From: Ruminococcus sp. YE282
GTDB lineage: Bacteria; Bacillota; Clostridia; Oscillospirales; Acutalibacteraceae
Direction of reading: 5' to 3'
NCBI GenBank assembly: GCA_900101355.1
Contig: FMUV01000005.1
Span: 34,193 to 98,192, forward strand
Length of the DNA stretch: 64,000 nt
Part shown: positions 1-22,801 of the stretch, piece by piece
Layout of the letters: the number at the start of each line of letters is the position of its first letter
Numbering within the stretch: position 1 is the stretch's first letter
Made by a program: the position numbers and the translations under genes
The notes under the pieces: model-generated
Seen by the model: only the letters and a program-made list of their open reading frames with translations
Database searches by the model: none
Told to the model about the DNA's origin: nothing

Positions 1-2
1 CA

Positions 3-4690: not shown

Positions 4691-4717
4691 TTTCGCAGAT
4701 TGTTTCAATCTATGAAA
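4691..4717. repeat. 27-bp inverted repeat, left copy, beside the integrase
   Basis: Contains CAGATTG TTT CAATCTA, itself nearly palindromic with a TTT centre. It is 26/27 identical to the reverse complement of 6080-6106. Two 7-bp arms around a short asymmetric centre is the layout of a tyrosine-recombinase crossover site. It lies 62 bp beyond the integrase stop. Confidence 0.75.
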
Positions 4718-4778
4718 TATCTTTCAAAGTTCGCATAAACCCTAACCTTTTTAAAGCTTTGACTAAAAAACTGACCAT

Positions 4779-6699: not shown

Positions 6700-9198
6700 A
6701 TGATTTTATTAAAATATATACTAAAAGAATTTAAAAGCAAAAAACTGAGAACATTTATTTTGGTGCTTTCAATTTGTTTGGCATCAGCTATGTTGTTTGC
6801 ATCTTTGACATTATCAAAGACACTTGTAGAGCTTCAAAGAGATTCATATAAAGCAAGTGTAGGAACTGCTGATATTGTTGTATTATCAAAGGAAAAACAA
6901 TTTTTTGAACTTACCGATCTTAATTGCAACGAAGTAGCGACAGACCGTGTTATACCTAAACTTAATGTAACTGGCTTGTTTGATAAAAAAACCCAATCGG
7001 GAAGTTTATTTTTCCAAATTAATGGATTTGATTATGATGATATTCAGAACTTTAATCCTATAGAATTTGATAAGGTTGATAATAAAAGTTTTGAAGGAAA
7101 GGAAGTAATAATCGGATCTTACACAGCTGAAAAGCTTGGTCTTGATATTGGCTCTGAATTTGAGATCTCTATTAATGATGTAAAATACAACTTTAACGTT
7201 TACGGAATTGCTAAAAAAACGGGATTGTTTGCTTTTGATGGACAAAGATACAGTGCTATAATACCTATAACGACTCTAAGGGAGATGCTTAAACTTCCTC
7301 AAGAAAGTGTATCAGAATTGTATGTTGTATTGAAAACAGATGTTGATAAAGAAAATGCACTCCAAAAACTCTCGGATGAGAATCCAGAGTTAAAAGTAGA
7401 TTATTCTTATTCTGAGGAAGAAATCGAAGAAGAATCAAAGAATTTGATAGTGCAGATGTATGTTTTGCTTATAATTATATCTATAATGAGTTTTTACATC
7501 ATCTACTCATCATTTAAAGTGTTAATTCTTGAAAGAATGCCTGTTATAGGAACTTTCAGAAGCATTGGTGCAAATAAGCGTCAAACTTCATTAATGCTTA
7601 TTTTTGAAAGTTCAGTATATGGTGTTTTGGGCGGAATATTAGGCTGCTTTACCGGATTATTAATACTTTATATTGTTGTTCGCATGAGTATGACAGGAGA
7701 TCTTGAGAATGTTAATATCGAATTAACTTTTTCAGCTATCGATATTATCATAGCATTCTTGTGGGCAGTCGTTTTAGCTGTTGTCAGTGCAATACTGCCT
7801 GTTTTAAGTGCTAATAAAAAGTCTATCAAGACTATTGTTTTAAATCAGCCTGAGATCAAAAAAGTGAAAAAAGGTTCGTTTGTCGGATTTATGATCTCTT
7901 TGATAATAATTTGTGCAGCCATCGGTTTATTGTATGTTCCGTTTAAGAAGGGCGCAATAGTTTTTGATTCGATCTCTCTTGTACTTCTTATAATAGGTGC
8001 ATTCAGAATTACTTCATATATCATTCATTTTATAGCCTCCAAATTCGAAAAGTTATATTCTTTGTTTTTTGGAAATGCAGGATTAATTGCATTAAAAAAC
8101 ATCAAGAACTCTTCTGAAAGTATTAATAATGTTTTGCTACTTACGTTAGCAGTCGCAACTGCAATCTCTGTCTTCACTGTAACAGGAAGTATAGTTTTTG
8201 AAATAAATAATGTTGTTTCTTCGTCGTATCATTTTGATTATATCATTAAATCACAATCGATGAATGATGAATTTAGGGACAAACTCGTAAATATAGAAGA
8301 AATACAGGATAGTTATGGTCTGTTTTCGCAGAGAAATGTTTCCATAAATGATAGTGAAAAGACAATAAATGTGGTCGAAGGAATAGATACACATAATTAT
8401 CTAGATTTCCGCAGCTTTGATTTTGAAGGTACAGAAGCTGAAAAAAAGGAGTGCATTGAGAAACTCGATTCAGGCAAAAACATCATTATGACATACATGC
8501 TCATGGATAAATATGATCTTAAAGAAAACGATATTGTTTCTCTTGAAACAAACGACGGAAAAGTTGATTATACAGTTGTTGGTTCATTTTACTCCATGCT
8601 TGAAAGCGGCGGAAATTACGCTTTGATAAGTGAGGAAAATTTGAAAGAAGATTTCAATATTGTTAACTACAGTCAGTTCTACATAAAAAGCGAGGATCCT
8701 GCAATTGAGACAAAGCTCTTTTTGGAATTTCCAAATGACAATATTTCAATCACTTCAATTGATGAATTAATTGAAGTGAGCAAAAAGAGCAGTGAACAGA
8801 AAACCAACATCTTTAACGGTTTATCATGCGTTGTTATTATAATATGTTTCTTTGGACTCTTGAATAATCTTATAATGAATTACCTTGAAAGAAGAAAAAC
8901 CAAAGCGATAATGAGATCTATCGGAATGACAAAATCAAAAGGAATACTTATAGTTCTGGTTGAAGCTCTTACTTGCGGAATATTTGGTGGATTGATCGGT
9001 GTTGCAGAAGGCTTGGGAATAATACATATTTCTAAATTTGTAATGAAGGCGATAAATAAACCATATGCAATTAAAATTAATCCTTCGGTTTTTGTAATGT
9101 TTTTCACAATAGCTTTAGTTTCAAGTGTTCTCTCGTTTATATTCCTTGAAATGAAAACAAGAAAAATGAGTATATCCGAAGAGATAAAGGGAAGGTAA
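6700..9198 (+). CDS. FtsX/MacB-type ABC transporter permease
   Basis: An 832-residue membrane protein with two FtsX domains. The first helix is near residues 18-40, followed by a large extracytoplasmic domain to about residue 245. Helix groups lie near 250-275, 305-330 and 347-369, a central pair of helices near 394-445, the second half starts near 475-500, and three C-terminal helices lie near 705-727, 752-775 and 795-818. Gram-positive members of this family export antimicrobial peptides or lipids, or provide resistance to them, using energy from a LolD-like ATPase; that ATPase gene follows after 6 bp. As first gene of the operon it may export the product of the genes downstream. The substrate cannot be read from sequence. 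Confidence 0.88.
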   Translation: MILLKYILKEFKSKKLRTFILVLSICLASAMLFASLTLSKTLVELQRDSYKASVGTADIVVLSKEKQFFELTDLNCNEVATDRVIPKLNVTGLFDKKTQSGSLFFQINGFDYDDIQNFNPIEFDKVDNKSFEGKEVIIGSYTAEKLGLDIGSEFEISINDVKYNFNVYGIAKKTGLFAFDGQRYSAIIPITTLREMLKLPQESVSELYVVLKTDVDKENALQKLSDENPELKVDYSYSEEEIEEESKNLIVQMYVLLIIISIMSFYIIYSSFKVLILERMPVIGTFRSIGANKRQTSLMLIFESSVYGVLGGILGCFTGLLILYIVVRMSMTGDLENVNIELTFSAIDIIIAFLWAVVLAVVSAILPVLSANKKSIKTIVLNQPEIKKVKKGSFVGFMISLIIICAAIGLLYVPFKKGAIVFDSISLVLLIIGAFRITSYIIHFIASKFEKLYSLFFGNAGLIALKNIKNSSESINNVLLLTLAVATAISVFTVTGSIVFEINNVVSSSYHFDYIIKSQSMNDEFRDKLVNIEEIQDSYGLFSQRNVSINDSEKTINVVEGIDTHNYLDFRSFDFEGTEAEKKECIEKLDSGKNIIMTYMLMDKYDLKENDIVSLETNDGKVDYTVVGSFYSMLESGGNYALISEENLKEDFNIVNYSQFYIKSEDPAIETKLFLEFPNDNISITSIDELIEVSKKSSEQKTNIFNGLSCVVIIICFFGLLNNLIMNYLERRKTKAIMRSIGMTKSKGILIVLVEALTCGIFGGLIGVAEGLGIIHISKFVMKAINKPYAIKINPSVFVMFFTIALVSSVLSFIFLEMKTRKMSISEEIKGR

Positions 9199-9204
9199 TT
9201 ATAT

Positions 9205-9879
9205 ATGAAAAAAATTGTTGATGTAATAGATGTATGCAAATCATTTTATATAGCAGGAGAAGAAGTTCCAATTCTGAAACATATCGATCTTTCAATAAAA
9301 AAGGGATCATTTACAAGTATTATGGGGCCTTCTGGCTCAGGGAAAAGTACCTTTCTTTATCTTTTGGGCGGACTTGACGAACCAACTTCAGGCGATATAC
9401 AGATTAATAAAAAAAGTATTGTTAAGCTTAACGACAAACAAAAAAGTAATATGCGCCTTAAAAATATAGGTTTTGTTTTTCAGTTTTATAATCTTGTTCC
9501 TACATTGAATGTTAGAGATAATATTATGCTTCCTGTTTTGCTTGATAAGAAAAAAGCAAAAGATTATGAAGAACGATATAAGGAACTTATAGAAATAACC
9601 GGATTAAGCAAGCGTGAAAGAAATCTCCCTTGTGAATTATCAGGAGGTCAACAGCAAAGAGTTGCTATTGCAAGAGCTCTTATAAACGATCCTGAGATAA
9701 TATTAGCTGATGAGCCAATCGGTAATTTGGATTCAATTACAGGAAAGGAAATAATGGAGCTTTTCAGTAAGCTTAATCGTGAAAAAGGCGTAACTTTTAT
9801 TCAGGTAACACATTCACTAGAGGCTTCTGAGTATGGTGATAATCTAATTAAATTAAAAGACGGAAAAGTGATTAAATAG
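9205..9879 (+). CDS. ABC transporter ATPase of the LolD/MacB type
   Basis: A 224-residue nucleotide-binding subunit of normal family length. It has Walker A GPSGSGKST near residue 38, Q-loop in FVFQFYNLVP, signature LSGGQQQR near residue 146 and Walker B ILADEPIGNLDS near residue 165, plus the H-loop in QVTHS. It starts 6 bp after the FtsX permease gene and surely pairs with it. The second, unrelated ABC system of the operon is at 18987-20533. Confidence 0.95.
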   Translation: MKKIVDVIDVCKSFYIAGEEVPILKHIDLSIKKGSFTSIMGPSGSGKSTFLYLLGGLDEPTSGDIQINKKSIVKLNDKQKSNMRLKNIGFVFQFYNLVPTLNVRDNIMLPVLLDKKKAKDYEERYKELIEITGLSKRERNLPCELSGGQQQRVAIARALINDPEIILADEPIGNLDSITGKEIMELFSKLNREKGVTFIQVTHSLEASEYGDNLIKLKDGKVIK

Positions 9880-9891
9880 GATGGAAATCAA

Positions 9892-11385
9892 ATGAAATAT
9901 GATGATATTATAATAGGTGGTGGACTTGGGGGACTTGTTGCTACTGCTTTCTTATCCAAAGCTAAAAGAAAAGTATTGCTTATTGAGAAAAATGCTAACT
10001 GCGGAGGATGTATTGTTGAATATAAGCGCAAGGGATTTAAATTTGATTCGTCTACGCATTGGATAAATAATGTTAAAATGATAAAACGTTTCTTAGCAGA
10101 ACTTAATGCAGAAGAATATGTGGAATTTAAAAAATTCGATCCAATGATGAATATAATTACCACAAATGGTCAGTATTTATTGTCATTTGATGTTGAAGAT
10201 TTTAAAGAGAAACTAATTAATAAGTTTGAAGATGATAAGGACAACATAATTTTATTTTTTGAAGAGGCTAAAAAATTCGGCGATGAAATGGAGCTTTTAA
10301 TGAATAGCTCATTTAAGTATATGAAATTGATGGATTTTGTAAAATTTGGCATGAACTATGTTACAAATAAAATGCCAGTTATAAGGAAATATTCAGGGAA
10401 AAAAGCTTGTGATGTAATTGAATCAATGTTCAAATCAAAAGAATTAAAAAATATATTATATTCTTTGGGAACAGTTCCTGATCGCTCCATATACCCTATT
10501 TTATGTAAAATAGCATGGGCTTATTCAAAAAATTATTATTATTTGACTAAAGAGAATGGCAAGGATAATTTGCCTGAAGCATTAGAAAGAATAACATTAG
10601 AAAACGGTACTCAAATCAAAAAAAATACAGAAGTTGTGAAGATAATTGTTAAGGATAAAAAAGCCGTTGGAGTTAAATGTAAGGATGGAACAAAATATTA
10701 TGGAAGAAATATCATTTCTGATATTGATGCCAATGCAACTTATTTCAAACTTATAGGTGAAAAAAATCTTCCTGAAAAGTTTATTAGAAAAATAAAAGAT
10801 AAAAAAATATATCCATCCTATTGTCGTATATCCTTGGGCGTGGATTATGATTTTGCCAAAATGGGGTATAAGGGAGAGACAATTACTTTTTTACCTTCGG
10901 ATGATCTTGAAAAAGTATTTGGATATGATTTGAAGTATTGTAGGAAAAGTTTATATTTCAGATCTTTGCATGATAGGTCGTATGCACCTGAAAATTTTAA
11001 CACTCTTGAAATCGGGTTTAGATTACCATATAACTATATGAATTATTGGAAGACTGATTTTGACAGAACTAGGAATGAACAGTATTACGATTTAAAAAAG
11101 ATAGTTGTTGAAGAGGTTCTTGATTCTATATCAACAGTTTTTCCTGATATTAGAGAACATATATTTTTTACTGATTTTATAACTCCAATAACTTATGAAA
11201 GATATACCGGAAATACAGAAGGTTCAATGATGGGGTGGGAAGAAGGTAAAGGCGGCATATTAAGAAAAGAACCTATCAAAAACTTCTATCGCGTAGGTCA
11301 TTGGTCATTTCCAGGAGGGGGAATTCCGCGTGTAATTGCTTCTGGAAAAATAGTATCAGATATGATCATCAGCAGAGAAAAGTAG
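9892..11385 (+). CDS. Phytoene-desaturase-like FAD oxidoreductase
   Basis: A 497-residue flavoprotein of the CrtI/carotenoid-isomerase group (COG1233). The N-terminal dinucleotide fold is explicit: DIIIGGGLGGLVATAFLSKA, then the acidic end of strand 2 in LLIEKNANCGG and the DSSTHW segment. The C-terminus has GGGIPRVIASGK, the usual final FAD/substrate motif. The family desaturates, isomerizes or saturates polyenes. In an operon making an ACP-bound chain, it most likely acts on double bases of the acyl chain or a released product; there are no carotenoid genes nearby. It begins 12 bp after the ATPase and ends 10 bp before the hydrolase. Confidence 0.85.
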   Translation: MKYDDIIIGGGLGGLVATAFLSKAKRKVLLIEKNANCGGCIVEYKRKGFKFDSSTHWINNVKMIKRFLAELNAEEYVEFKKFDPMMNIITTNGQYLLSFDVEDFKEKLINKFEDDKDNIILFFEEAKKFGDEMELLMNSSFKYMKLMDFVKFGMNYVTNKMPVIRKYSGKKACDVIESMFKSKELKNILYSLGTVPDRSIYPILCKIAWAYSKNYYYLTKENGKDNLPEALERITLENGTQIKKNTEVVKIIVKDKKAVGVKCKDGTKYYGRNIISDIDANATYFKLIGEKNLPEKFIRKIKDKKIYPSYCRISLGVDYDFAKMGYKGETITFLPSDDLEKVFGYDLKYCRKSLYFRSLHDRSYAPENFNTLEIGFRLPYNYMNYWKTDFDRTRNEQYYDLKKIVVEEVLDSISTVFPDIREHIFFTDFITPITYERYTGNTEGSMMGWEEGKGGILRKEPIKNFYRVGHWSFPGGGIPRVIASGKIVSDMIISREK

Positions 11386-11395
11386 TGGGGTATAT

Positions 11396-12157
11396 ATGAA
11401 AATTTGTATAATAAAAAACTGTGTTCTTAGTATGAAAAAAGGATTTAGTTTATTTCCAAGTTCAAATATGGAAGACGAATATCCTGTTTACTCATTTTTA
11501 TTTATGTTTGAAAAAGTATCTTTTTTAGTAGATACGGGCATGGCAAAAGAGACTTATGCGAGCCTTGGAACGATAGGTAAATTTTTTAAAGTTACAGATC
11601 AAAAAAAAGTTACAGATTCATTAGCAGATATTGGCTGTAATAAAATTGATTTTATAATCAATACTCATCTCCATTTTGATCATAGTGGGGGGAACAAATT
11701 ATTTCGAAATATTCCGATTTATATACAAAAGAAGGAGATGGATGATTTTATTGCGAATAAAAAAAACCCTATGTATATTAATCAATTGATTGATGGAATC
11801 GATTATAAAATGGTTGAAGGTGATAAAGTCATTTATAAAGATGATGAAGTTAGCGTAAATTTGATATTTACACCTGGGCATTCAAAGGGACATCAGTCTG
11901 TATTGATAGAACATGGTGACAAAAATTTTTTAGTTTTAGGTGATGTGGGTTATTTTGATGAAGAAGGAAGTATAATTCCATTTGGCAACAAAAAGGATTC
12001 GCTTTATGAGGTGTCTTTATCATCAGCTGTAAAAATAAACAAAATAATTCATGATAACGCGTCAAATATATCGGTTTTTGTTTCACATGATGAAAGCAAA
12101 GTGTCTTTTGCTGATGCATGTGCTAATAATAATATAATTATTTTTAAAGGAGAGTAA
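11396..12157 (+). CDS. Metallo-beta-lactamase-fold hydrolase
   Basis: A 253-residue single-domain protein. Zinc ligands are visible in THLHFDHSGG (HxHxDH), the His of TPGHSKGHQS, the Asp of LGDVG, and a C-terminal His in FVSHDES. This arrangement is that of the lactonase/glyoxalase-like branch (COG0491). In polyketide clusters such enzymes release the chain from ACP as thioesterases or help cyclization; here that is inference from position directly before the acyl carrier protein gene. There is no signal peptide, so it is cytosolic. Spacing to the ACP gene is 3 bp. Confidence 0.85.
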   Translation: MKICIIKNCVLSMKKGFSLFPSSNMEDEYPVYSFLFMFEKVSFLVDTGMAKETYASLGTIGKFFKVTDQKKVTDSLADIGCNKIDFIINTHLHFDHSGGNKLFRNIPIYIQKKEMDDFIANKKNPMYINQLIDGIDYKMVEGDKVIYKDDEVSVNLIFTPGHSKGHQSVLIEHGDKNFLVLGDVGYFDEEGSIIPFGNKKDSLYEVSLSSAVKINKIIHDNASNISVFVSHDESKVSFADACANNNIIIFKGE

Positions 12158-12160
12158 TAT

Positions 12161-12421
12161 ATGAAAGCAACACGTGATGAGATTTTAACAACTTTAAAGG
12201 AGATTCTTATCAATAACCTTAATATTTCTTTAAATCCAGAGGAAATTGATGAAAATGAATCATTGTTTGAAGGGGGCTTTGAACTTGATTCAGTAGATAT
12301 GCTTGAAATTGTAGCAGGTGTAGATGAAAAGTATAATATCGCTCTTACTGACAAGGATAGTGAATATTTTGAAAATCTAAACAAACTTAGTAGCTATATC
12401 GAGAGCAAAATTACTGATTAA
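12161..12421 (+). CDS. Acyl carrier protein
   Basis: An 86-residue acidic four-helix protein. The phosphopantetheine attachment serine is Ser44 in GGFELDSVDMLEIV; the usual DSL is replaced by DSV. The preceding hydrophobic NNLNISLNPEEIDENESLF helix-loop is typical. It would hold the growing chain for the ketosynthase, ketoreductase and dehydratase encoded downstream. No phosphopantetheinyl transferase, malonyl-CoA:ACP acyltransferase or enoyl reductase is in the window, so those would come from the host fatty-acid system if needed. An AGGAGAG ribosome site lies 6 bp before ATG. Confidence 0.93.
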   Translation: MKATRDEILTTLKEILINNLNISLNPEEIDENESLFEGGFELDSVDMLEIVAGVDEKYNIALTDKDSEYFENLNKLSSYIESKITD

Positions 12422-12644
12422 TAAATCCCGACTCGCATGCGGAGGGAACCCTTGTAAAACGGGTCTTTATGATGTTTAGTAGATTAATTTTGATTTAGAA
12501 TTTTGAAAATTAAATCTATTGATAAGAAACAATGCCTTGTTATCACATTTCTTCTTAGTTGTTCACTCCGTGTGCAAGTCGCTGGGTTAAATAATAGAGA
12601 GCTATTTGGATCTAGAAATAGATTGCTGAAATAGGAGTTGTATT
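12422..12644 (+). other. 223-bp gap inside the operon
   Basis: This is the only large gap in the operon. It contains a small stem ACCC...GGGT followed by CTTT (about 12449-12468), which could be a weak attenuator, and an AT-rich stretch. I see no gene in it. It splits the operon into an upstream transport/ACP part and a downstream chain-building part, so a second promoter here is possible. Confidence 0.35.
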
Positions 12645-13634
12645 ATGGATTGTGTAAAAATAAAAGTTCCTGTGAATTCATTGGCATCTGCTAAGATACA
12701 GATATCCTGTGGGGCTGATGAGATTTATCTTGGAATGTTTTCGCCTGAATGGTTTGCGAACTTAAGTTTTTCTCATAGGGGAAGAAAAAATTTATCAAGT
12801 GATAGAGATGGTTGCATAACTACAGATGAAGAATTAAAAGCAATTATAGACTATGCACATTCACATGGCGTTACTGTCAGTTTTACTGCAAATTTTTTCA
12901 ACTTACCGGATACTGACGTTAATGAAGTGAATGGTAAAACACTTTCTGATGGTTACCTTGAATATGTAGAAACCGCTATTAGGTGTGGTGTTGATTCTAT
13001 AATTGTTGCAACGCTCAGTGAGGTATTAATAATAAGGAAATCCTTTCCTGATGTAAAAGTAGTTGCGAGCTGTTTATTTATGATCTCAAATGAAGAGTAT
13101 GTAAAGTATTTGTATTCTTTGGGTGTGAAATCATTTTTTTTACCGCATGACACAAATATTGAAGAGATTAGAGCTATTAGAAGTATTAGTGAAGATATAG
13201 AGATTGGCGTTTTTGCGCATCTTTCGTGTGCGATGTTAAGCGGAGGATGCCATTTATATCATAAATTTGGAGAAGCAGTTGATCTTGGATACCCGTGCAG
13301 GAATAAATACACTTGTAAAAATGAAGATGGTGAAGTGGAAATTTGTCACATATTTGATTTTAATTGTGATTGTGCCTTGTGTCAGGTAAAGAATCTGATT
13401 GATGCTGGAGTTAATTCATTAAAGATAATCGGTCGCTCCTCATCTTATAAAATTACATCAAGAATGACAAAGGTTTATAAAAAGATGGTACAAACAGTTC
13501 TTTCAAACGGTGACTGTATGGCAATCAGACAAGAGATAATCAATGAAGAAACTTGGTGGAAGAGTACGTACTGTGATAATCATGCTTGTAAGTATTCTAA
13601 AAACGGTAAATTTACAGATTATCTTATAGGGTGA
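12645..13634 (+). CDS. U32 family protein, UbiU-like (anaerobic hydroxylase subunit)
   Basis: A 329-residue U32 protein, almost the length of E. coli UbiU. The N-terminal half is a TIM-barrel-like fold (GADEIYLG, then TANFFNLPDTD). The cysteine box is present: Cys195 and Cys202 in HLSCAMLSGGCHLYHKFG, Cys218 in LGYPCRNKY, and Cys243/Cys246 in CDCALC, followed by the family motif AGVNSLKIIGRSSSYKI. In UbiU four cysteines in this order hold a [4Fe-4S] cluster. Despite the name peptidase U32, characterised UbiU/RlhA relatives are O2-independent hydroxylases that take oxygen from prephenate. The UbiV-like partner follows after 9 bp. The substrate here is inferred to be the ACP-bound or released product of the operon. 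Confidence 0.85.
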   Translation: MDCVKIKVPVNSLASAKIQISCGADEIYLGMFSPEWFANLSFSHRGRKNLSSDRDGCITTDEELKAIIDYAHSHGVTVSFTANFFNLPDTDVNEVNGKTLSDGYLEYVETAIRCGVDSIIVATLSEVLIIRKSFPDVKVVASCLFMISNEEYVKYLYSLGVKSFFLPHDTNIEEIRAIRSISEDIEIGVFAHLSCAMLSGGCHLYHKFGEAVDLGYPCRNKYTCKNEDGEVEICHIFDFNCDCALCQVKNLIDAGVNSLKIIGRSSSYKITSRMTKVYKKMVQTVLSNGDCMAIRQEIINEETWWKSTYCDNHACKYSKNGKFTDYLIG

Positions 13635-13643
13635 GGTGAAACA

Positions 13644-14537
13644 ATGCTGAACATCGCAAAAGTGTTTGATAACAAGTGCTTAGAAGAAGCAAAAAGAATA
13701 AATTTTGACGGTTATTGTTTCGGTGATGAGTTTTGTTTTTATAAATTCAAGAACGTAACAAAATATTATAATGAAATAAAAGAATTTTCTAAGGCTGGTA
13801 AAATGATTTTTGTTGCAATACCAATAATTCAACAATCTCATCTTGTTGAATGTAAGAAAATTTGCGCTGAATTAATGCAACTTGGCATAAAAATAATTTA
13901 TATAATTAATGATTTAGGTATGCTTTATTATTTGAAAACAGAATATAAGTATGTGGATTATTCTGTAATACTTGGACGTTTACTTAATAAGAATATCGAA
14001 AGCTGTCCATGGAGCGAGCATATAATAAGAAACGAGAATGATTTTATAAAAAAAGTAATGTATACTAACAGTGCTAACTCAGATATTGTTATTGAACATC
14101 TTAATGATTTAAATGTTAAAGGTGTTCATTGTAATATTACTCAAAACCAAAAGGCCTCATACATAAAGCTTAAAGAAAAAGGATATCTTATAACAGCTGA
14201 TTTGGGATATACTTATGTTGCTTCAAGCAGAGTGTGCATAACTGCGCATCATAAGCATATCAAAGTTGGAGACTGTTCATCAATCTGTAAGAGTTTTATA
14301 GAAGTTACACTTGATAAAATTAAGAATGTTTCTGATATGAACAACAGTTTAGTTAAAAGTGAAAACGCAAAGGAGCTTTATGGTACACTTTATGTAAATG
14401 GAAACTGCATATTCAAGAAGAATAGTATTGAGGACGTTCCAAAAGAGATTGATTGTGTTATGATAGATATTGTTTCATATTTAAATGATTTGTCCAAACT
14501 TGAGGAATTGATTTGTAGAATAAAAAGTTTAGATTAA
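13644..14537 (+). CDS. U32 family protein, UbiV-like (anaerobic hydroxylase subunit)
   Basis: A 297-residue protein, close to E. coli UbiV in length. The diagnostic cysteines are all there: Cys31 in GDEFCFYKFKN (UbiV has a Cys in the same place), and Cys198, Cys211 and Cys215 in SSRVCITAHHKHIKVGDC and SSIC, spaced C-x12-C-x3-C exactly as I recall for UbiV. NDLGMLYYLK is the usual barrel motif. UbiU and UbiV form a heterodimer with one [4Fe-4S] cluster per subunit and hydroxylate without oxygen. Finding both as neighbours between an ACP and a ketosynthase gene suggests they work on the pathway product, not on quinone; no quinone genes are present. Confidence 0.85.
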   Translation: MLNIAKVFDNKCLEEAKRINFDGYCFGDEFCFYKFKNVTKYYNEIKEFSKAGKMIFVAIPIIQQSHLVECKKICAELMQLGIKIIYIINDLGMLYYLKTEYKYVDYSVILGRLLNKNIESCPWSEHIIRNENDFIKKVMYTNSANSDIVIEHLNDLNVKGVHCNITQNQKASYIKLKEKGYLITADLGYTYVASSRVCITAHHKHIKVGDCSSICKSFIEVTLDKIKNVSDMNNSLVKSENAKELYGTLYVNGNCIFKKNSIEDVPKEIDCVMIDIVSYLNDLSKLEELICRIKSLD

Positions 14538-14552
14538 TGAGGTGGGAAGCGT

Positions 14553-16871
14553 ATGTACAATAGGTGCGTTGTAACAGGTTTAGGAGTGGTTTGTCCGATT
14601 GGTAATAATCTTCAAGAGGCATGGGATAACGCATTAAAAGGCGTGCCTGGCTCAGGAGATGTAACATCTATTGAAGTTGAAGGATGTTATACAAAGACCG
14701 CTTGTGAGGTTAAGGGATATAATGTTAAAAAAGCAGAACTTGATTTAGTATCAGATTTTTGTCTCACAGCTGTTGAAGAAGCGATTACTGATTCAGGTGT
14801 CATTATAAATGATAAAAACAATAAAAAAACTGGTGTAATTGTTGGAAGCTGTACAGGTGGAGCACTGACATCTGAAAAAGTATATAAAGCATTAATTGAA
14901 GGAAACAAATCCGTTGATAGAAAAGAAGTATTTCAAATGCCAATTTCTTCTATGGCAGTAAATATTGCTCATTATTTTAACATTAAAGGTTATATTTCAA
15001 GTGTAGGAAATGCTTGTGCCGCTGGAACTCTTAATATAGGTTATGCGTGCGACCTTATTGAGCAAGGAATATTAGATATTGTTATAGTTTGTGGTGCTGA
15101 TACCTTATCTTCTCTTGTTTTTTCAGGTTTCCATTCTCTTCACGCATTAGCAAATGGAGCTTGTGCTCCTTTAAGTGCAAGTGACGGAATTAACCTTGGA
15201 GAAGGGGCGGGAGCTATAATAATCGAATCCATAGATCATGCTAAAAGCAGAAACGCAAGAATTTATTGTGTAGTATCAAGCGTTGGAGTAAGTAGTGATG
15301 CACATCATATTACTGCACCCCATCCAGAAGGAGTCGGACAGAGAAGCGCAATGAGAAGCGCTTTACAGCTAGCTGGTGTAAGTGTAGATGAAGTTGGATA
15401 CATTAATACTCACGGAACAGGAACTCCTGTGAATGATTCTACTGAAAAGGAGTCTATCCGTTCAATATTTGGCAATAATGTGTTTATAAGCTCAACAAAA
15501 TCTATGACAGGACACTGCTTAGGTGCTGCAGGTACTATTGAAGCTGTGTTTACAATAAAGAGTTTATACGATTCGATTGTTCCACCTACAATTAATTTTA
15601 AGGGCGATGACGATAGTGGTTTAAATATTGTTATCGATACTGCTAAAAAAATGGGAATGGAATATGCTTTGTCAAATTCATTTGCGTTTGGTGGAAATAA
15701 TGCTTCTATTCTTCTGAAACAGTATAATGATGATGTTATTGGAAAAGAATCATTTTTTTCTGCTGATAAGAGGATTGCAATTACAGGTTTGGGAGTAATT
15801 ACAGATTGTGTTGAAGGTGTAGATGAATATATAAACAAAGTTAATAATTTCAAAAATAAATCCGAATATGGATCTGAAGAATCATCATCGGCATATGCAA
15901 TAAAAAATAATACTTATAAAATTAAGTCTGCATTATACAGGAAAATGGATAGACTTGGAAAATACCTTGTTATTTCAGGTATCAAAGCTATAAACGATTC
16001 TAAGATTGATTTTGATGTTATTGATAAAAATAGGATCGGTTGTATAATTGGAACTGCAAGTGGTCCTGTTACATCAATTGCAACATTCGTATCAGGAGTT
16101 GTGAAAAGTGGACCATCTCACGGAAGTGCTTTTGTATTTCCTAATACAGTATATAATGCTGCTAGTGGTTTCCTCTCTATATGTTTAGGGATCAAAGGCT
16201 ATTCTGCAACCGTCAACAATGGAAATATGTCAGGCATTGAGAGCATATGCTACAGTTCAAATGTTATCAAACACGGTTTGCAGGAAAATATGCTTGCTTG
16301 CGGAAACGATGAGATTTCTGATGTTGTTGAGAAACTCTACGATATAATTGGAAACAAAGTTTACCCGTTAGGTGAGGGCGGAACTGCGATTATGCTTGAA
16401 GATTATGAAAGTGCTTGTAAGCGCAATGCTACAATATATGCTGAAGTTGCAGGGTATTTTATGACACATGAACCTTTAGAGAGCGGGGATGTATCAATTT
16501 CAGAATCTCTTCTTAGTGATGCTGTTATTGGTGCAGTTAAAGCTGCTGATATTTCTATAGATGATATTGATTTTATCATAGGTTTCGGAGAAACTGAAGC
16601 AGAAAGAAAGTGCTATACGAAGCTCTTTGCTCATTGTAACAAGAAGATATCTGTAGTGAATATTAAGCCAATCGTTGGCGATTGCAGAGCTGTGGGTTCT
16701 GCTTTGCAGGTTGTACATGGTGCTCTTGTGCTTGATGGTAATATTCCAAAAGATATTGCTAGCGATTATAGTGTTGGCAAAGGAATTGTTGTTAATAATG
16801 AAACTAAATATGGTGTTATTATAGGACATAGTTTTGGTGGTTCTGTAATGGCGCTTATATTAAAAAAATAA
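14553..16871 (+). CDS. Fused ketosynthase / chain-length-factor-like protein (KS-CLF)
   Basis: A 772-residue protein made of two full beta-ketoacyl synthase domains. Domain 1 (about 1-392) is complete: nucleophile Cys155 in SSVGNACAAGT, His287 in NTHGTGTPVND and His321 in SMTGHCLGAAG. Domain 2 (about 406-772, starting KRIAITGLGVITDC) has lost all three: Asn558 stands in NNGNMSG where Cys should be, GFGETEAERK replaces NTHGTGT, and VGDCRAVGSA replaces GHCLGAAG. An active KS with an inactive KS partner is the KS-alpha/KS-beta pair of type II polyketide and aryl-polyene systems, where KS-beta sets chain length. There they are separate genes; here they are one chain. Confidence 0.92.
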   Translation: MYNRCVVTGLGVVCPIGNNLQEAWDNALKGVPGSGDVTSIEVEGCYTKTACEVKGYNVKKAELDLVSDFCLTAVEEAITDSGVIINDKNNKKTGVIVGSCTGGALTSEKVYKALIEGNKSVDRKEVFQMPISSMAVNIAHYFNIKGYISSVGNACAAGTLNIGYACDLIEQGILDIVIVCGADTLSSLVFSGFHSLHALANGACAPLSASDGINLGEGAGAIIIESIDHAKSRNARIYCVVSSVGVSSDAHHITAPHPEGVGQRSAMRSALQLAGVSVDEVGYINTHGTGTPVNDSTEKESIRSIFGNNVFISSTKSMTGHCLGAAGTIEAVFTIKSLYDSIVPPTINFKGDDDSGLNIVIDTAKKMGMEYALSNSFAFGGNNASILLKQYNDDVIGKESFFSADKRIAITGLGVITDCVEGVDEYINKVNNFKNKSEYGSEESSSAYAIKNNTYKIKSALYRKMDRLGKYLVISGIKAINDSKIDFDVIDKNRIGCIIGTASGPVTSIATFVSGVVKSGPSHGSAFVFPNTVYNAASGFLSICLGIKGYSATVNNGNMSGIESICYSSNVIKHGLQENMLACGNDEISDVVEKLYDIIGNKVYPLGEGGTAIMLEDYESACKRNATIYAEVAGYFMTHEPLESGDVSISESLLSDAVIGAVKAADISIDDIDFIIGFGETEAERKCYTKLFAHCNKKISVVNIKPIVGDCRAVGSALQVVHGALVLDGNIPKDIASDYSVGKGIVVNNETKYGVIIGHSFGGSVMALILKK

Positions 16872-16903
16872 TTATCAAAATATTTTAGGAAGTGAGGTTT
16901 TTT

Positions 16904-17785
16904 ATGATAGGAATTGTAACCGATAGCAGTGCTGATCTCCCGTTATCATTTTATAAAGAGCATGAAAATGTCGTAATGATGCCCCTTACAGTAAGATTAG
17001 GATTGCAGTCATTAAAGGATTGGTATGATATTTCGCCCGAGTTTGGCAAAGATGAAAGAGTTTATACAATAAACGAATTCTATGAAAAAATGGCTGAAAA
17101 AAAATATGTGCCACGTACCGTTCCGGTAACAGTCAGTGAATTTCAAAATATATACAATGTACTATCTTCAAAATGTGATACGATCATATCTATTCATTTT
17201 TCACATAAGCTCGGATATACAGTTGAACAGGCAAAAGTAGCTGCTAAACGTATAAATAACTGTAATGTAATAGTAATAGATACTCTTCAGATTTCAAACG
17301 GATATAGTGCAATGATACGTGAAGCTGTTAATCTAAGAGATCGTGGAGCGTCTGCTGAAGATATCGTAAAGCTTGTAAATTCAATGATTTCTTCGCTTAA
17401 TTCAAAGTTGATAATGACAAATCCAAGTAGCGAATATTTGCACCGTTGTGGCAGAATGAGTACATTTAAATTCGTGTTTGCTAACATAGTAAAGTTGAAA
17501 AACTTTACTATTACTGACGGAATGATAACACCTATGTTTGCTTATAAGGGAGAAAATGGTCTGAATCGGCTTATTAATGAAATGATAAAAGAACTTGTTA
17601 AAGAAAAGAAAAGCGGAAAAAAAGTATACGCTATCATTTCACACGCCAACTGCGAGAATAGTCTGAAAAAACTGGAGAGGTTATTGATAATAAATAATAT
17701 TGATTATTATACTCAGTTCCTCGGACCTATAACAGGCGTATACGGTGGCCCCGGAACATGGGCTGTTATGCCAGTTATATTGTAA
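16904..17785 (+). CDS. DegV family fatty-acid-binding protein
   Basis: A 293-residue DegV/FakB-type protein. The start at ATG 16904 has AGGAAGTGAGG upstream; a GTG 12 nt earlier is in frame but badly placed. It opens with IGIVTDSSADLP, the family signature, has a lipid-contact region around HFSHKLGYTVEQA, and ends with GGPGTWAVMPVIL, the usual C-terminal motif. FakB proteins hold a fatty acid for phosphorylation by FakA or shuttle it. In this operon it probably binds the acyl product or a fatty-acid starter and passes it to an enzyme or exporter. No FakA kinase is present here. Confidence 0.88.
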   Translation: MIGIVTDSSADLPLSFYKEHENVVMMPLTVRLGLQSLKDWYDISPEFGKDERVYTINEFYEKMAEKKYVPRTVPVTVSEFQNIYNVLSSKCDTIISIHFSHKLGYTVEQAKVAAKRINNCNVIVIDTLQISNGYSAMIREAVNLRDRGASAEDIVKLVNSMISSLNSKLIMTNPSSEYLHRCGRMSTFKFVFANIVKLKNFTITDGMITPMFAYKGENGLNRLINEMIKELVKEKKSGKKVYAIISHANCENSLKKLERLLIINNIDYYTQFLGPITGVYGGPGTWAVMPVIL

Positions 17786-17799
17786 AAAGGGGGCGGATT

Positions 17800-18534
17800 A
17801 TGTCTAAGACAGCGTTAATCACTGGTGGGTCAAGAGGTATCGGAAAGGCATGTGCATTATCTCTTGCTGAAAATGGATATGATATAATAATTAATTATTG
17901 CAACAATTCTGCTGCCGCTGAAGCTACAGTAAATGAAATAAAGGCTTTAGGTGTAAATGCTATATCTATAAAAGCTGATGTATCAAAAAATGACGAAGTC
18001 AGAAGCATGTTTAAACGAATCAACGCAACCACTAAACAGTTAGATGTGTTGGTAAATAATGCAGGTATTGTAAAAGATCAGTATTTGCTTATGCTTGATG
18101 GTGCTACAACTCAAAGATGTATTAATACCAATATAGTTGGATATGTATATTGTTTGCAACAAGCCGCCTTAAAAATGTTTAGAAAGAAAAGTGGGTGCAT
18201 AATAAATATTTCTTCTGTGAGTTCTAAAATAGCATTACCTGGTCAGGTGATATATTCTGCAACTAAGGGTGCTATCAATTCTATGACTCAGACATCAGCA
18301 AAAGAACTTGCACCTTATGGTATAAGAGTTAACGCCGTTGCACCTGGATTTGTAAGAACAGAAATGCTCGATGCTTTAAATGAAGAGTATATTAAAAAGC
18401 ATATAGAAAATATTCCTTTAGGAAAATTTGCTGATGTTGAAGATGTAGCTAACGTTGTTTCTTTTTTATGTAGCGAAAAAGCTTCTTATATTACAGGACA
18501 AGTTGTTATTGTTGATGGAGGTCTGTCACTGTGA
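17800..18534 (+). CDS. fabG: 3-oxoacyl-ACP reductase, FabG-type (ketoreductase)
   Basis: A 244-residue short-chain dehydrogenase starting at the ATG at 17800 after AGGGGGCGG. Motifs in order: TGGSRGIGKACA (NADPH-binding glycine motif), NNAGIVKDQ, catalytic Ser in NISSVSSK, Tyr and Lys in YSATKGAIN, and C-terminal YITGQVVIVDGGLSL typical of FabG. It would reduce the beta-keto group after each condensation by the KS-CLF protein. It is the operon's own copy, not necessarily the housekeeping enzyme. Its stop overlaps the FabZ start by 4 nt (GTGA), pointing to coupled translation. Confidence 0.95.
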   Translation: MSKTALITGGSRGIGKACALSLAENGYDIIINYCNNSAAAEATVNEIKALGVNAISIKADVSKNDEVRSMFKRINATTKQLDVLVNNAGIVKDQYLLMLDGATTQRCINTNIVGYVYCLQQAALKMFRKKSGCIINISSVSSKIALPGQVIYSATKGAINSMTQTSAKELAPYGIRVNAVAPGFVRTEMLDALNEEYIKKHIENIPLGKFADVEDVANVVSFLCSEKASYITGQVVIVDGGLSL

Positions 18535-18986
18535 AAAAGAGTAACTATGAAGTCAATTCTATTTTAAAACAAAAGCCTCCATTTCAAATGGTAGACAGAT
18601 TAGAAGAATTAGTTGAAGGGAAAAGTGCAGTTGGTATCAAGTGTGTTTCTTCTAATGAAGACTTTTTCTTAGGCCATTTTCCTGATCAGCCTATTATGCC
18701 GGGCGTACTGTTGATGGAATCTTTTGCCCAGACTTGTGCTCTTGTTATGGCTTCGGTAGATGGTAGTGAGAATAATGAAAAAGTTCAGATGATAGTAAAA
18801 GTAAAAGATTTTAAATTTGTCAGAGTTGTAACACCAGGAGATATTTTGAAGGTCAATGTAAGAAGAAAAAATAAGTCCTTGGCTATGGCGACTTTTGAAG
18901 GTGAGATATACTCTGGAGAAAATAAATTAGTTGCAAAAGGTGAGATGGCTTTTTCATCCGCTTCCTATAATAAACGGAGTGAGTAG
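18531..18986 (+). CDS. fabZ: 3-hydroxyacyl-ACP dehydratase, FabZ-type
   Basis: A 151-residue hot-dog-fold protein. The catalytic motif is intact: His in FLGHFPDQPIMPGVLLMES and the downstream Glu in the same helix, with the following FAQTCALVM helix. It begins at GTG within the FabG stop codon. Together with KS-CLF, FabG and ACP it can build a chain with conjugated double bonds, since no enoyl reductase is encoded. That set (KS, CLF, KR, DH, ACP) matches aryl-polyene-type and other reducing type II polyketide systems. The next gene starts directly after its stop codon. Confidence 0.95.
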   Translation: MKKSNYEVNSILKQKPPFQMVDRLEELVEGKSAVGIKCVSSNEDFFLGHFPDQPIMPGVLLMESFAQTCALVMASVDGSENNEKVQMIVKVKDFKFVRVVTPGDILKVNVRRKNKSLAMATFEGEIYSGENKLVAKGEMAFSSASYNKRSE

Positions 18987-19832
18987 ATGAAATGTATAGA
19001 GATAAATGAATTATCCAAAGTTATTGCCGGTAAAATTATTCTTGATAAAGTTACTTTTCATGTTGATGAAGGTGAGATATTTGGACTTTTAGGTCCATCA
19101 GGTGCTGGTAAAACCACAATAATGAATATCTTATGCGGTCAAAGAAAAGCGACAAGCGGACAAACTATTATAAACGGAATAAAGTCGGAAATGCTTCCTG
19201 ATGATGTACTGAAAAACATTGGAATAATGTTTGATGATTATTCTTTATATGATAGATTGAGTTGCTTTGATAATCTTTTACTTATCACTGATATCTTGAA
19301 AATTGACAAAAATGAAATATTTAATGTGTTAAGAAAAGTCGGACTTGAAGATAGCAAAGATAAAGCTGTTTCAAAGCTTTCTAAAGGTATGAAACAGAGA
19401 TTATTGTTTGCTCGTGCCATTATTCATAAACCAAAGCTATTGTTTCTTGATGAGCCCACAAGTAGCCTCGATCCATCAACTACACTTTTGATTCATAATG
19501 TTATTCGTGATTTGAAAAAAGAAAAAACAACAGTTTTTTTGACTACGCATAATATGCATGAAGCTCATAAGTTGTGTGATAATATCGCATTATTAAGTAA
19601 TGGAAAAATAGTTGAGTATGGAAATCCAGATGAGATTTGTTTAAAATATCAATCTGAATTAGAAGTTGCTTTAACTTTTGATGATGGAAGAATTGAAAAA
19701 TTATTCTTAACCAACAAGAATATCGATATTTTATATAATTATTTAAAAAATAATTGTGTAAAGTCAATTCATTCATCTGATGTTAATTTGGAAACCATTT
19801 TCATAAAATTAACAGGTAAGGGTTTGAAATAA
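18987..19832 (+). CDS. ABC transporter ATPase (ABC-2 exporter type)
   Basis: A 281-residue nucleotide-binding protein with Walker A GPSGAGKTT, signature LSKGMKQRL, Walker B LLFLDEPTSSLDP and H-loop TTHNMHEA. The ~70 residues after the ATPase core resemble the C-terminal extension of drug/lantibiotic-type ABC-2 exporters. It starts right after the FabZ stop and its stop overlaps the permease start (TAATG), so these two form the second exporter of the operon. Two exporters of different classes suggest export of the product and self-protection, though which does what cannot be told. Confidence 0.93.
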   Translation: MKCIEINELSKVIAGKIILDKVTFHVDEGEIFGLLGPSGAGKTTIMNILCGQRKATSGQTIINGIKSEMLPDDVLKNIGIMFDDYSLYDRLSCFDNLLLITDILKIDKNEIFNVLRKVGLEDSKDKAVSKLSKGMKQRLLFARAIIHKPKLLFLDEPTSSLDPSTTLLIHNVIRDLKKEKTTVFLTTHNMHEAHKLCDNIALLSNGKIVEYGNPDEICLKYQSELEVALTFDDGRIEKLFLTNKNIDILYNYLKNNCVKSIHSSDVNLETIFIKLTGKGLK

Positions 19833-20533
19833 TGTCAATTAATTCGATAAAAGCGATTTTTAAAAAGCAGTGTAAGGATTTATGGAAGAATAAAGCTATT
19901 TTGATACAATTTACCCTTTTCCCTTTTTTATGTTTAATGATGACATTTTTGATAAAAACCGAACAATTTACACATATGTTTTTTGCGAATCTTTTTTCAA
20001 CAATGTATATTGGAATGACTCCGCTAAGTAGTATGAATTCCATAATCGCTGAAGAGAAAGAAAGTGGAACACTTTCGATGCTGAGAATGCTCAGGGTTAA
20101 ATCTGTGGAGTATTTTATTGGTGCTGGATCAAGTGTTTTTCTTATGTGTCTTTTGGTATCAATCAGTTTTGGTTTTGTGGCAGGGTATTCATTTAGTCAG
20201 TTTATAATGTATATTGTCATTGAAAGTTTAGGAATTATTATATCTATGATTATTGGTTCAGTAATTGCCATGTTCACTAAGAATCAAAGTGCTGCAACCT
20301 CAATTGCTACACCTATAAGAATGATGATATCCTTTTTTCCTATGATTTCAATGTTAAATCCTGATATTAAATGTTATTTTGGCTTTTTATATACTCAACA
20401 GATTAATAATTCACTTGCTGATCTCTCAAATAATGAAAAATTTTTTGATTGCTTGAAAATTACTTCAATAACAATAGTTGTACTTGTAGGGGTTTTTATT
20501 TTGCTTTATAAAAAGAATAATAAGCAAGAATAA
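19832..20533 (+). CDS. ABC-2 type transporter permease
   Basis: A 233-residue membrane protein with about six hydrophobic segments (near residues 22-38, 44-66, 98-120, 125-146, 150-172 and 205-228). It contains the cytoplasmic EEKESGTLSMLRMLRVKS segment that in ABC-2 permeases contacts the ATPase. It is the last intact gene of the operon; downstream lies decayed transposase DNA. The partner ATPase is the overlapping upstream gene. Confidence 0.88.
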   Translation: MSINSIKAIFKKQCKDLWKNKAILIQFTLFPFLCLMMTFLIKTEQFTHMFFANLFSTMYIGMTPLSSMNSIIAEEKESGTLSMLRMLRVKSVEYFIGAGSSVFLMCLLVSISFGFVAGYSFSQFIMYIVIESLGIIISMIIGSVIAMFTKNQSAATSIATPIRMMISFFPMISMLNPDIKCYFGFLYTQQINNSLADLSNNEKFFDCLKITSITIVVLVGVFILLYKKNNKQE

Positions 20534-20734
20534 TGGATTGAATATAGTTTGAGTGTATGTGATTATTTCGTGCCAAGTAGAGCAGGTATACGCGCCACAG
20601 AAAGTGCGGAGTTAATGCCTTTCTCGGAAGTGAAATAGCTTTTCAAAAGAAACTGCCAACTAAATCTCGTCCTACATAAGCTATGCGCAACATTATACAA
20701 TCACTTAGGAATCAAAAACTAAGGAGTGAATTGC

Positions 20735-20893
20735 ATGACAAATATCAGGGAAGAAAAAAATATTTGCGGCACAGCGAGTGGGCAAATGGTACAAAACTAA
20801 CGGTATTACTGAAACTACGTATTACCCTAGGATAAGAATCATCAGCGAGGAGTATCTTCAAAATGCGAAAAACGCAACGACGAAAGTTGTCTA
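20735..20893 (+). pseudogene. IS66 TnpA-like remnant
   Basis: In one frame the sequence gives RVGKWYKTNGITETTYYPRI, then IRIISEE, closely resembling the conserved helix-turn-helix of IS66-family TnpA (VRxWCExNGIxExTYYYxLRKIRE). Frames are broken on both sides. It is one of several insertion scars in the 1.15-kb gap (20534-21688) after the biosynthetic operon. The first 200 bp of that gap hold nothing I recognise. Confidence 0.6.
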
Positions 20894-20902
20894 GTTATCT
20901 TT

Positions 20903-21486: not shown

Positions 21487-21772
21487 GATACTACGATGAT
21501 GGTTTGCTTTCACCATGTGTATATTTTTTGTAACGTTTTTGTTGATAAATACTACTTATTAATGATTTTTAGGTTCAGTCCCTTTTTCTGTAATATTTAA
21601 AAAGTATTGAGAAACTAAGGGAAAAAGTCTTAGCATATTTTCAGATTATTGCCAAGATTAAAATGATCGGCTACGCCGCCATCTCTTAATGAGCTTACTC
21701 CACAAAAAAGCAATTGAGTTTTTTTATATCGAGTTTAACAGATTCAGAATAACAATACCGGGAATGATTTTG

Positions 21773-22801
21773 ATGAAGTATCTTAATAGGTTGCCAGAAC
21801 CAAATGAATTAAAACAGCGGCTTAAAATTTCACATGACATGTTCCATAAAAAAGAATTACGCGATCAAGAAATTGCTGATATTTTAAGAGGAGTATCGAA
21901 AAAAAAGATTATAATAATTGGTCCTTGTTCATCCGATAATGAATCATCAATTCTTGATTATGTAAGTCGCCTTGCAATTATTCAAGAGTCAGTAAAAGAC
22001 AAATTGCTTATTATTCCTCGTGTTTATACTGCTAAACCAAGAACAAAGGGCTGTGGCTATATGGGTATGCTACATCAGCCAGACAAATCAAGTAATGAAG
22101 ACGTTGTTAAAGGAATTGAGCAAGTTAGAAAAATCCACATAAAGGTTTTCAACGAATCAGAATTGAGCACAGCTGACGAAATATTATACCCTGATGTTTA
22201 TGAGTATATATCTGATTTACTTACATATTGTTCTATTGGTGCACGAACTGTAGAAAGTCAGGAGCATAGATTATTGGCTAGTGGAATTTCATGCCCAGTA
22301 GGTATGAAAAATCCAACCAGTGGGGATTTGTCTGTCATGCTTAATGCAATTTTTGCAAGTCAAATGCCGCATCGAATGCTTTACATGGGGTGGGAAGTTC
22401 AAACGGATGGAAATCCGTTATCACATGCAATATTACGTGGCTCTTCTTTGTTTGGAATAGAAAAACAAAACTGTACTATTAGCGAATTCAATTATTTGAG
22501 AAAACATTATAAAACGCCAGTTTTTCAAGTTCCTTCTGTAATTGTGGATGTTAGTCACAGTAATGCATTAGGAAACTATAATAATCAAATCTACAATTGC
22601 TATAATCTAATAAAATTATGTAATTTGTATGGATGGGTTAATAGAATGATAAAAGGTCTAATGATAGAAAGCTATATTGAAGATGGAAGACAAAATGTGA
22701 ACGGTTGTTGCTATGGTAAATCAATTACCGATCCATGTATCGGTTGGAAGAAAACCTATGACTTATTGATGAAAATAGCGAATGATTGGAATATTATTTA
22801 A
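21773..22801 (+). CDS. aroG: DAHP synthase, class I AroG-type
   Basis: A 342-residue enzyme that condenses phosphoenolpyruvate and erythrose 4-phosphate, the first step of aromatic biosynthesis. It has GPCSSDN (PEP site), the KPRT motif in YTAKPRTKGCGYMGM, GARTVESQEHR, CPVGMKN, DVSHSN and the C-terminal YGKSITDPCIGW, all in AroG order and length. The start was placed at the ATG at 21773, with GGGA upstream; the open frame reaches 21689 but the added residues do not look like the family. It sits alone between transposase scars and a broken cysK. It may increase flux to chorismate and prephenate, the oxygen donor of UbiU/UbiV-type enzymes. Confidence 0.88.
   Translation: MKYLNRLPEPNELKQRLKISHDMFHKKELRDQEIADILRGVSKKKIIIIGPCSSDNESSILDYVSRLAIIQESVKDKLLIIPRVYTAKPRTKGCGYMGMLHQPDKSSNEDVVKGIEQVRKIHIKVFNESELSTADEILYPDVYEYISDLLTYCSIGARTVESQEHRLLASGISCPVGMKNPTSGDLSVMLNAIFASQMPHRMLYMGWEVQTDGNPLSHAILRGSSLFGIEKQNCTISEFNYLRKHYKTPVFQVPSVIVDVSHSNALGNYNNQIYNCYNLIKLCNLYGWVNRMIKGLMIESYIEDGRQNVNGCCYGKSITDPCIGWKKTYDLLMKIANDWNII

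Follow-up and report, generated by a model that had tools for sequence, protein, structure and literature searches.

UbiU and UbiV are U32 proteins of anaerobic ubiquinone synthesis, a process for which prephenate is reported as the source of the hydroxyl groups, although the same review notes that this has yet to be proven directly for the enzymes (PMC11574389). The ligands of the UbiV [4Fe-4S] cluster, C39, C180, C193 and C197, are proven (PMC6747719). Other U32 proteins act on RNA: TrhP and RlhA hydroxylate tRNA U34 and 23S rRNA C2501, respectively, and TrhP requires prephenate (PMC6599085). We analyzed a 64,000-nucleotide stretch of the Ruminococcus sp. YE282 genome (contig FMUV01000005.1; hereafter the window), in which two adjacent U32 genes, designated U32a and U32b, lie within a predicted polyketide operon. 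From sequence comparison we judge it moderately probable that the pair forms a heterodimeric, O2-independent and prephenate-dependent hydroxylase of the UbiU/UbiV kind, with an Fe-S cluster in each subunit, which tailors the product of a reducing type II polyketide synthase (PKS).

Like their E. coli counterparts ubiU and ubiV (331 and 292 amino acids, aa), the two genes are adjacent, in the same order and of near-equal size; U32b keeps the four UbiV ligands and U32a three of the UbiU positions. In contrast to UbiU-UbiV, the pair resides in a PKS operon, in which no UbiT-like gene was seen, and in a genome without a UbiA match, and U32a carries an extra CxxC motif and a C-terminal Cys pair and is without the equivalent of UbiU C193. 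With TrhP and RlhA the pair shares the U32 domain and, putatively, prephenate-linked hydroxylation, but these proteins are longer and form separate clades, and the genome encodes one of each elsewhere.

The gene pair and its kinship with UbiU and UbiV

The two genes are codirectional with a 9-bp spacer, each is preceded by a purine-rich stretch that may serve as a ribosome-binding site, and both open reading frames (ORFs) are intact. As an earlier, sequence-only reading of this DNA had described, they are flanked by an acyl carrier protein (ACP) gene and a ketosynthase (KS) gene:

12645..13634, forward strand: U32a, candidate UbiU-side subunit, 329 aa, with Cys195, 202, 218, 243, 246, 310 and 315
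13644..14537, forward strand: U32b, candidate UbiV-side subunit, 297 aa, with Cys31, 198, 211 and 215 at the UbiV cluster positions

The cysteines named in that reading, C195, C202, C218, C243 and C246 of the first protein and C31, C198, C211 and C215 of the second, are all in place. Their spacing was rejected as sole evidence: the CX12CX3C pattern arises in 384 of 20,000 shuffles of U32b (1.9%) and CX6CX15C in 573 of 20,000 shuffles of U32a (2.9%), and homology therefore needed other proof. U32a belongs to Pfam family PF01136 (105.8 bits, cut-off 22.4). For U32b there was no Pfam match and no NCBIfam match of use, so its assignment to UbiV rests on alignment and tree.

In an alignment of nine diverged U32b proteins, E. 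coli UbiV among them, C31, C198, C211 and C215 align with UbiV C39, C180, C193 and C197 in all nine proteins (CXnCX12CX3C) and make up four of the ten invariant columns. The same four cysteines were invariant in a second set of nine U32b proteins, assembled without UbiV and with archaeal and other relatives. It is this alignment, rather than the motif spacing, that exceeds chance, and it bears out the UbiV-type Cys pattern proposed earlier, the four ligand positions being homologous. Identity between U32b and UbiV is 19%. A first profile alignment was discarded, being too diverged to serve as a search query.

U32a is 24% identical to UbiU, and its C195, C202 and C218 align with UbiU C169, C176 and C232, three of the four UbiU ligand positions (CX6CX16CX38C). 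Nine U32a proteins (from the window, Ruminiclostridium hungatei, R. papyrosolvens, four Methanosarcinaceae, one Thermoproteota and one Saelkia genome) share C202, C218, C243, C246, C310 and C315. In a wider set of nine, which includes UbiU and two diverged clostridial types, the CxxC motif and the C-terminal Cys pair are present in 8/8 non-UbiU members. By these comparisons U32a is a UbiU relative with a putatively different ligand set, not UbiU itself, and should therefore not be filed as UbiU. The designation of the genes as a UbiU/UbiV-type pair thus holds for an adjacent pair of that kind whose second member groups with UbiV in the tree; it does not hold for the first protein, which is set apart from UbiU by the missing C193, the NCBIfam score and the tree.

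The tree was built from 82 rows with IQ-TREE under LG+C20; collagenases/peptidases and YrrN/YrrO are not among the rows, and the set leaves out loci re-fetching or near-copying others, locus L055 (U32a cut by the locus end) and four poorly covered long U32 rows. U32b and UbiV form one clade (support 99/98) with long branches. U32a proteins form another (100/99), with one 517-aa actinobacterial row inside; here the window protein is sister to R. hungatei U32a (97/83), within a six-row clade that also contains R. papyrosolvens-type and Methanosarcinaceae proteins (100/99). The window pair lies outside both the TrhP-type (100/99) and the RlhA-type group (98/92), where two U32 proteins from elsewhere in the same genome are found, of 406 and 693 aa, respectively. 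Placement with the tRNA- or rRNA-type U32 proteins, which the sequence-only reading had named as an outcome that would count against it, was accordingly not observed.

Within the tree set, each of the 22 U32b rows is accompanied by a U32a partner at its locus. After four near-duplicate pairs were dropped beforehand, partner distances of the 18 remaining pairs were strongly correlated (Mantel r 0.92; 0/9999 permutations as high), and such mirrored trees appear as expected of obligate partners.

The AlphaFold model of U32a had a mean predicted local distance difference test (pLDDT) score of 72.7, with 108/329 residues at >=90, and that of U32b a mean of 82.2. A Foldseek search with the U32a model returned the U32 structure 5D88 at rank 2, amid many triosephosphate isomerase (TIM) barrels; with the U32b model TIM-barrel enzymes were found and U32 was absent from the 50 matches listed. 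A sequence search of solved structures gave nothing relevant. 5D88 carries peptidase by name only, and a peptidase role is not supported, collagenases being outside the set of references compared.

The polyketide operon and a possible supply of prephenate

The remaining genes of the operon, and a synthase of 3-deoxy-D-arabino-heptulosonate 7-phosphate (DAHP) downstream, are as follows (ABC, ATP-binding cassette; CLF, chain-length factor):

6700..9198, forward strand: FtsX/MacB-like ABC permease, 832 aa (Pfam PF02687, PF12704)
9205..9879, forward strand: ABC transporter ATPase, partner of the MacB-like permease (PF00005, 119.4 bits)
9892..11385, forward strand: CrtI/carotenoid-isomerase-like FAD oxidoreductase, candidate polyene isomerase/desaturase (PF01593, 59.8 bits; NCBIfam carotenoid isomerase, 128.6 bits, below the cut-off of 586.9)
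11396..12157, forward strand: metallo-beta-lactamase-fold hydrolase, similar to acyl-homoserine-lactone (AHL) lactonase, candidate thioester/lactone hydrolase (PF00753, 61.8 bits; AiiA model, 119.2, below the cut-off of 375)
12161..12421, forward strand: acyl carrier protein (PF00550, 27.9 bits, cut-off 20.8)
14553..16871, forward strand: KS-CLF fusion, 772 aa (halves aligned; the first half keeps the catalytic Cys and His positions)
16892..17785, forward strand: DegV family (fatty-acid-binding) protein (PF02645, 153.5 bits)
17758..18534, forward strand: FabG-like ketoreductase (3-oxoacyl-ACP reductase model TIGR01830, 261.8 bits, below the cut-off of 297.75)
18531..18986, forward strand: FabZ-like dehydratase (PF07977, 84.2 bits; FabZ model NF000582, 121.1 bits, above the cut-off of 113)
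18987..19832, forward strand: ABC-2 type exporter ATPase (PF00005, 111 bits)
19832..20533, forward strand: ABC-2 type permease (PF12698, 22.6 bits, below the cut-off of 31.6)
21689..22801, forward strand: accessory DAHP synthase, AroFGH type (PF00793, 136.6 bits; aroFGH, 247.2 bits, above the cut-off of 173.2)

The genes of 6700-20533 are intact and tightly spaced except for 223 bp after the ACP gene. The neighbors of the pair were thus as first described, with the refinement that the KS gene encodes a KS-CLF fusion and that the 223 bp separate ACP from U32a. In the second half of the fusion the catalytic Cys and both His are absent, as in a chain-length factor, judged by what we take to be the catalytic motif of ketosynthases. 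Together, ACP, KS-CLF, ketoreductase (KR) and dehydratase (DH) identify the operon, by family membership, as a predicted reducing type II PKS; the combination of KS/CLF, KR and DH without an enoyl reductase suggests a polyene as the product. No malonyl transferase (MAT) was seen among the ORFs of 6700-22801.

Among plasmid records the nearest relative of the fusion was the KS-CLF fusion of Lachnospira eligens (39.8% identity over 100%), whose cluster has the order ACP-KS/CLF-KR-DH-MAT and, in contrast to the window, includes a malonyl transferase and no U32 gene. The window operon corresponds to an L. eligens-type core plus the U32 pair, DegV and other genes. The highly reducing type II PKSs of skyllamycin and kitacinnamycin likewise comprise KS-alpha/KS-beta, KR, DH, ACP and a candidate isomerase/desaturase; they differ in that KS and CLF are fused in the window and no nonribosomal peptide synthetase (NRPS) is present in its operon, and where a P450 acts on the terminal methyl group of kitacinnamycin the window has the U32 pair instead (PMC6510318). 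For the cinnamoyl pathways, isomerization of such a polyene, ring closure and desaturation to an aryl group are proposed (PMC6510318); in a scheme of this kind the CrtI-like protein would find a function. At E<=1e-30 this protein was found in one of 295 genomes of the host's order, its own. A promoter scan was no better than shuffles (90 found, 90.0 expected), while 12 terminators were found against 6.5 expected.

The accessory DAHP synthase follows the operon in the same direction, with 1.16 kb between it and the last exporter gene; a second copy is located on contig C70 of the same genome. In the U32 cluster of R. hungatei, the closest U32a relative, we found a chorismate mutase-DAHP synthase fusion (PF01817, 69.0 bits; PF00793, 265.4 bits) and a prephenate-dehydratase-like protein (PF00800, 27.7 bits, cut-off 25.2). 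The R. hungatei genome encodes three DAHP synthases and four relatives encode two each. Both neighborhoods, with a DAHP synthase close to the window operon and a chorismate mutase-DAHP synthase in the cluster of the closest U32a relative, fit the use of prephenate. By ORF reading, acyl-CoA-dehydrogenase-like and thiamine-pyrophosphate-enzyme-like ORFs lie between the prephenate-dehydratase-like and the chorismate mutase-DAHP synthase genes of R. hungatei (L036:13402-19613).

U32 pairs in other genomes

A profile search for U32b matched 10 of 391 Clostridia genomes; nine remained after a weak lone match (G509, 27.8 bits, 410-aa frame) had been set aside before counting. These matches correspond to 11 pair loci, two of them in R. 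papyrosolvens (G627) and two in its relative G588. Judged by Pfam matches and ORF reading, nine of the 11 loci appear to lie in biosynthetic clusters. The window is one of the nine; the others share with it a U32a/U32b pair in biosynthetic surroundings but differ in what surrounds it: NRPS and ligases, B12-radical S-adenosylmethionine (SAM) proteins with carbamoyltransferase, or a cyclase with UbiA. In R. hungatei the cluster contains AMP-ligases, with an NRPS 11 kb away. The first pair of R. papyrosolvens and of G588 is accompanied by a B12-radical SAM protein and a carbamoyltransferase (with an ACP ~12 kb away in G588), as is the pair of G691, which also has a radical SAM protein nearby. The second G588 pair neighbors an adenylation enzyme by Pfam, of which the R. 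papyrosolvens locus shows only the similar start of a cut neighbor. Near the G744 pair are two ACPs, a condensation domain and radical SAM proteins, and near that of G418 a squalene-hopene-cyclase-like protein, UbiA, a methyltransferase and a ligase-carrier protein. The surroundings of the G681 and G765 pairs were judged non-biosynthetic.

In a leave-one-out marker test, biosynthetic genes were present in 7/10 clostridial pair windows and in 0/14 windows around lone U32 genes; the marker classes (carrier, KS, NRPS, B12-radical SAM, carbamoyltransferase) were chosen after the loci had been seen and the 14 controls were hand-picked. The second R. papyrosolvens pair, a near-copy of that in G588, was dropped from this test, and the second G588 pair was tested with a one-sided window. 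Since the first pairs of R. papyrosolvens and G588 are near-copies, independent contexts amount to 6/9, or 5/8 if the two G588 pairs, 10 kb apart, are counted once. R. hungatei scored without a marker because the ligase queries derive from R. hungatei itself and the NRPS falls just outside the window tested.

A single-sequence scan of the genome contigs with U32a found no relative, and neither tblastn of U32b nor blastn of positions 9892-14537 gave a match to plasmids. Among phylum-level matches, 11 of 17 genomes, the host's own included, have the pair by profile scores, and in Bacillota outside the class the gene order is U32b followed by U32a (L047-L055, L057). In four Methanosarcinaceae metagenome-assembled genomes, adjacent U32a and U32b genes are followed by a uvrC-like gene (L081:993-2811, L082:1-1813, L083:9986-11797, L084:9959-11818). 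Archaea of the Methanosarcinaceae type make methanophenazine, the ring of which needs oxygen under anoxia, and the methanogen pair is a candidate for this oxygenation. In G418 (L070:2278-17738), a squalene-hopene-cyclase-like/MacB fusion, UbiA, a PEMT/UbiE-like methyltransferase fusion and two HGD-D proteins accompany the U32 pair, a cluster that looks like an anaerobic meroterpenoid pathway.

Function of the pair and its surroundings

In the pathway that we propose, KS-CLF, KR and DH would, on the basis of their families, build a conjugated polyene on the ACP, and the CrtI-like flavoprotein may isomerize or desaturate it, possibly on the way to an aryl ring of the cinnamoyl-lipid type. By analogy with its relatives, the U32 pair would then take oxygen from prephenate and hydroxylate the polyene or aryl product at an sp2 carbon, either on the carrier or after release. 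To our knowledge, U32 hydroxylases act on ring (sp2) carbons, and a polyene or aryl carbon is therefore favored over the saturated chain as the target. The extra DAHP synthase would raise the flux of the shikimate pathway towards prephenate. Release of the product, for which the metallo-hydrolase is a candidate, may be followed by binding to DegV and export through the ABC systems.

Several observations weigh against the proposed tailoring hydroxylase. We know of no enzyme assay for any such U32a/U32b pair. UbiU C193 falls in a stretch absent from U32a, which would probably need a substitute ligand from the CxxC motif at 243/246; in the wider set of nine U32a proteins C202 is the sole invariant Cys, C195 being missing from the R. 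hungatei protein and C218 from the second-type proteins of G744 and G588, and the Cys-bearing stretches 193-235 and 309-329 of the U32a model have pLDDT <50. NCBIfam scores of U32a are far under the cut-offs for both TrhP (64.1 bits, cut-off 534) and UbiU (60.8 bits, cut-off 440), and the UbiV model does not match U32b. UbiU itself lies outside the U32a clade, at the poorly supported base of the tree, and the long branches of UbiV (2.66) and window U32b (2.21) leave the nearest kin of U32b unsettled by the tree. In the operon, the 223 bp between ACP and U32a hold no convincing gene. The 1.16 kb before the DAHP synthase is without an ORF of 70 aa, which makes the link to the operon suggestive only, and this enzyme could be unrelated; a DAHP synthase stands beside the pair in two of the six pair-bearing genomes searched (G691, G681 and G765 were outside this search). 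U32b was found in one of 394 genomes of the host's order, its own, and the KS marker in none of the other pair windows tested, so that the KS/U32 combination was not met again. Finally, pair windows of G681, G765, two Bacillota outside the class and two methanogens contained none of the biosynthetic markers, from which it follows that U32 pairs also do other jobs.

Among the alternatives, a prephenate-dependent hydroxylation of a shikimate-derived or other small building block, such as a starter or side group, instead of the polyketide chain is unlikely yet deserves some weight. The DAHP synthase adjoining the operon would suit it, as would the precedent of celluxanthene, an arylpolyene pathway of anaerobes with an iterative type I PKS that uses a phenylacetate building block (PMC12144888), but neither a starter ligase nor an ammonia lyase or aromatic-acid gene was seen among the ORFs of 6700-22801. 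A different Fe-S redox step (dehydration, desaturation, isomerization or sulfur chemistry) seems fairly improbable: U32a has its own Cys set, unlike UbiU, with C243/C246 and C310/C315 invariant in nine relatives, whereas U32b retains the four UbiV ligands and the characterized U32 oxidases are tied to hydroxylation in the passages cited (PMC11574389, PMC6747719, PMC6599085). The operon could also be part of a decaying island and the pair a functionless remnant. In favor of this are the division of the integrase-like ORFs at 4779-5918 into two, the lack of any other 70-aa ORF in the DNA around the DAHP synthase, and the fact that no further genome sampled from the order had a match to U32b or to the CrtI-like protein; set against this, the operon genes of 6700-20533 are intact and, apart from the one gap, close-set, and the ligand cysteines are kept, and we regard decay as quite improbable.

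Two further roles would follow described U32 functions more closely. That the pair is a tRNA or rRNA hydroxylase carried with the island, for example for self-protection, appears very unlikely. B. subtilis yrrN and yrrO, U32 paralogs of one operon, do act on tRNA (PMC6599085), and U32a scores slightly better to TrhP than to UbiU. However, the tree, in which YrrN/YrrO are not represented, puts the pair outside the TrhP and RlhA groups, of which the genome has one member each elsewhere, and pairs occur in varied biosynthetic clusters. Service in a respiratory quinone pathway, as for UbiU/UbiV, can be given hardly any credence: UbiV is the characterized protein that groups with U32b, but UbiA has no match in the genome while 14/14 control genomes match. 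With TrhP-like and RlhA-like U32 proteins encoded elsewhere and UbiA not found, there is no need of an extra pair for housekeeping work on RNA or quinones.

If the tailoring hydroxylase is correct, polyketide-type molecules would join the substrates of U32 hydroxylases, and shikimate metabolism would be tied to tailoring through prephenate. Clostridia are a largely anaerobic class, and the recurrence of such pairs in several of their biosynthetic clusters points to a little-explored route by which anaerobes may oxygenate natural products without O2. It is conceivable, at somewhat less than an even chance in our estimate, that U32a/U32b pairs represent a general class of prephenate-fueled anaerobic tailoring oxygenases in clostridial natural-product clusters, in place of the P450s and flavin monooxygenases of aerobes, that some of these clusters provide prephenate themselves (through a chorismate mutase-DAHP synthase), and that in archaea and Bacilli this class works in other pathways. 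Adjacent U32a/U32b genes with four UbiV-type Cys and the U32a CxxC motif would then provide a genetic handle for genome mining. Because U32 proteins are labeled 'peptidase' and U32b is without any Pfam match, such genes are hidden from cluster annotation. The sequence-only reading knew of no description of a U32 pair that hydroxylates a carrier-bound or released acyl chain, and we found none of a U32 pair in a natural-product cluster among the matches listed in open-licence PubMed Central papers.

Beside the operon, positions 348-5918 encode a Toprim/DUF3991 protein, a TraG/VirD4-type coupling protein and, divided between two ORFs, a tyrosine integrase, which together suggest a conjugative element. 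GC content drops from ~0.46 in positions 1-4000 to 0.30-0.36 over the operon. Further downstream, a pemK cis-regulatory RNA (RF02913) was detected at 27455-27555 (51.7 bits), and positions 46000-62200 contain, by ORF reading, prophage-like genes (terminase-, portal-, protease-, capsid- and tail-tape-measure-like). Elsewhere in the same genome, contig C52 (3000-62000) carries large NRPS-like frames (6648 and 5556 codons), for which several carrier domains are among the matches listed.

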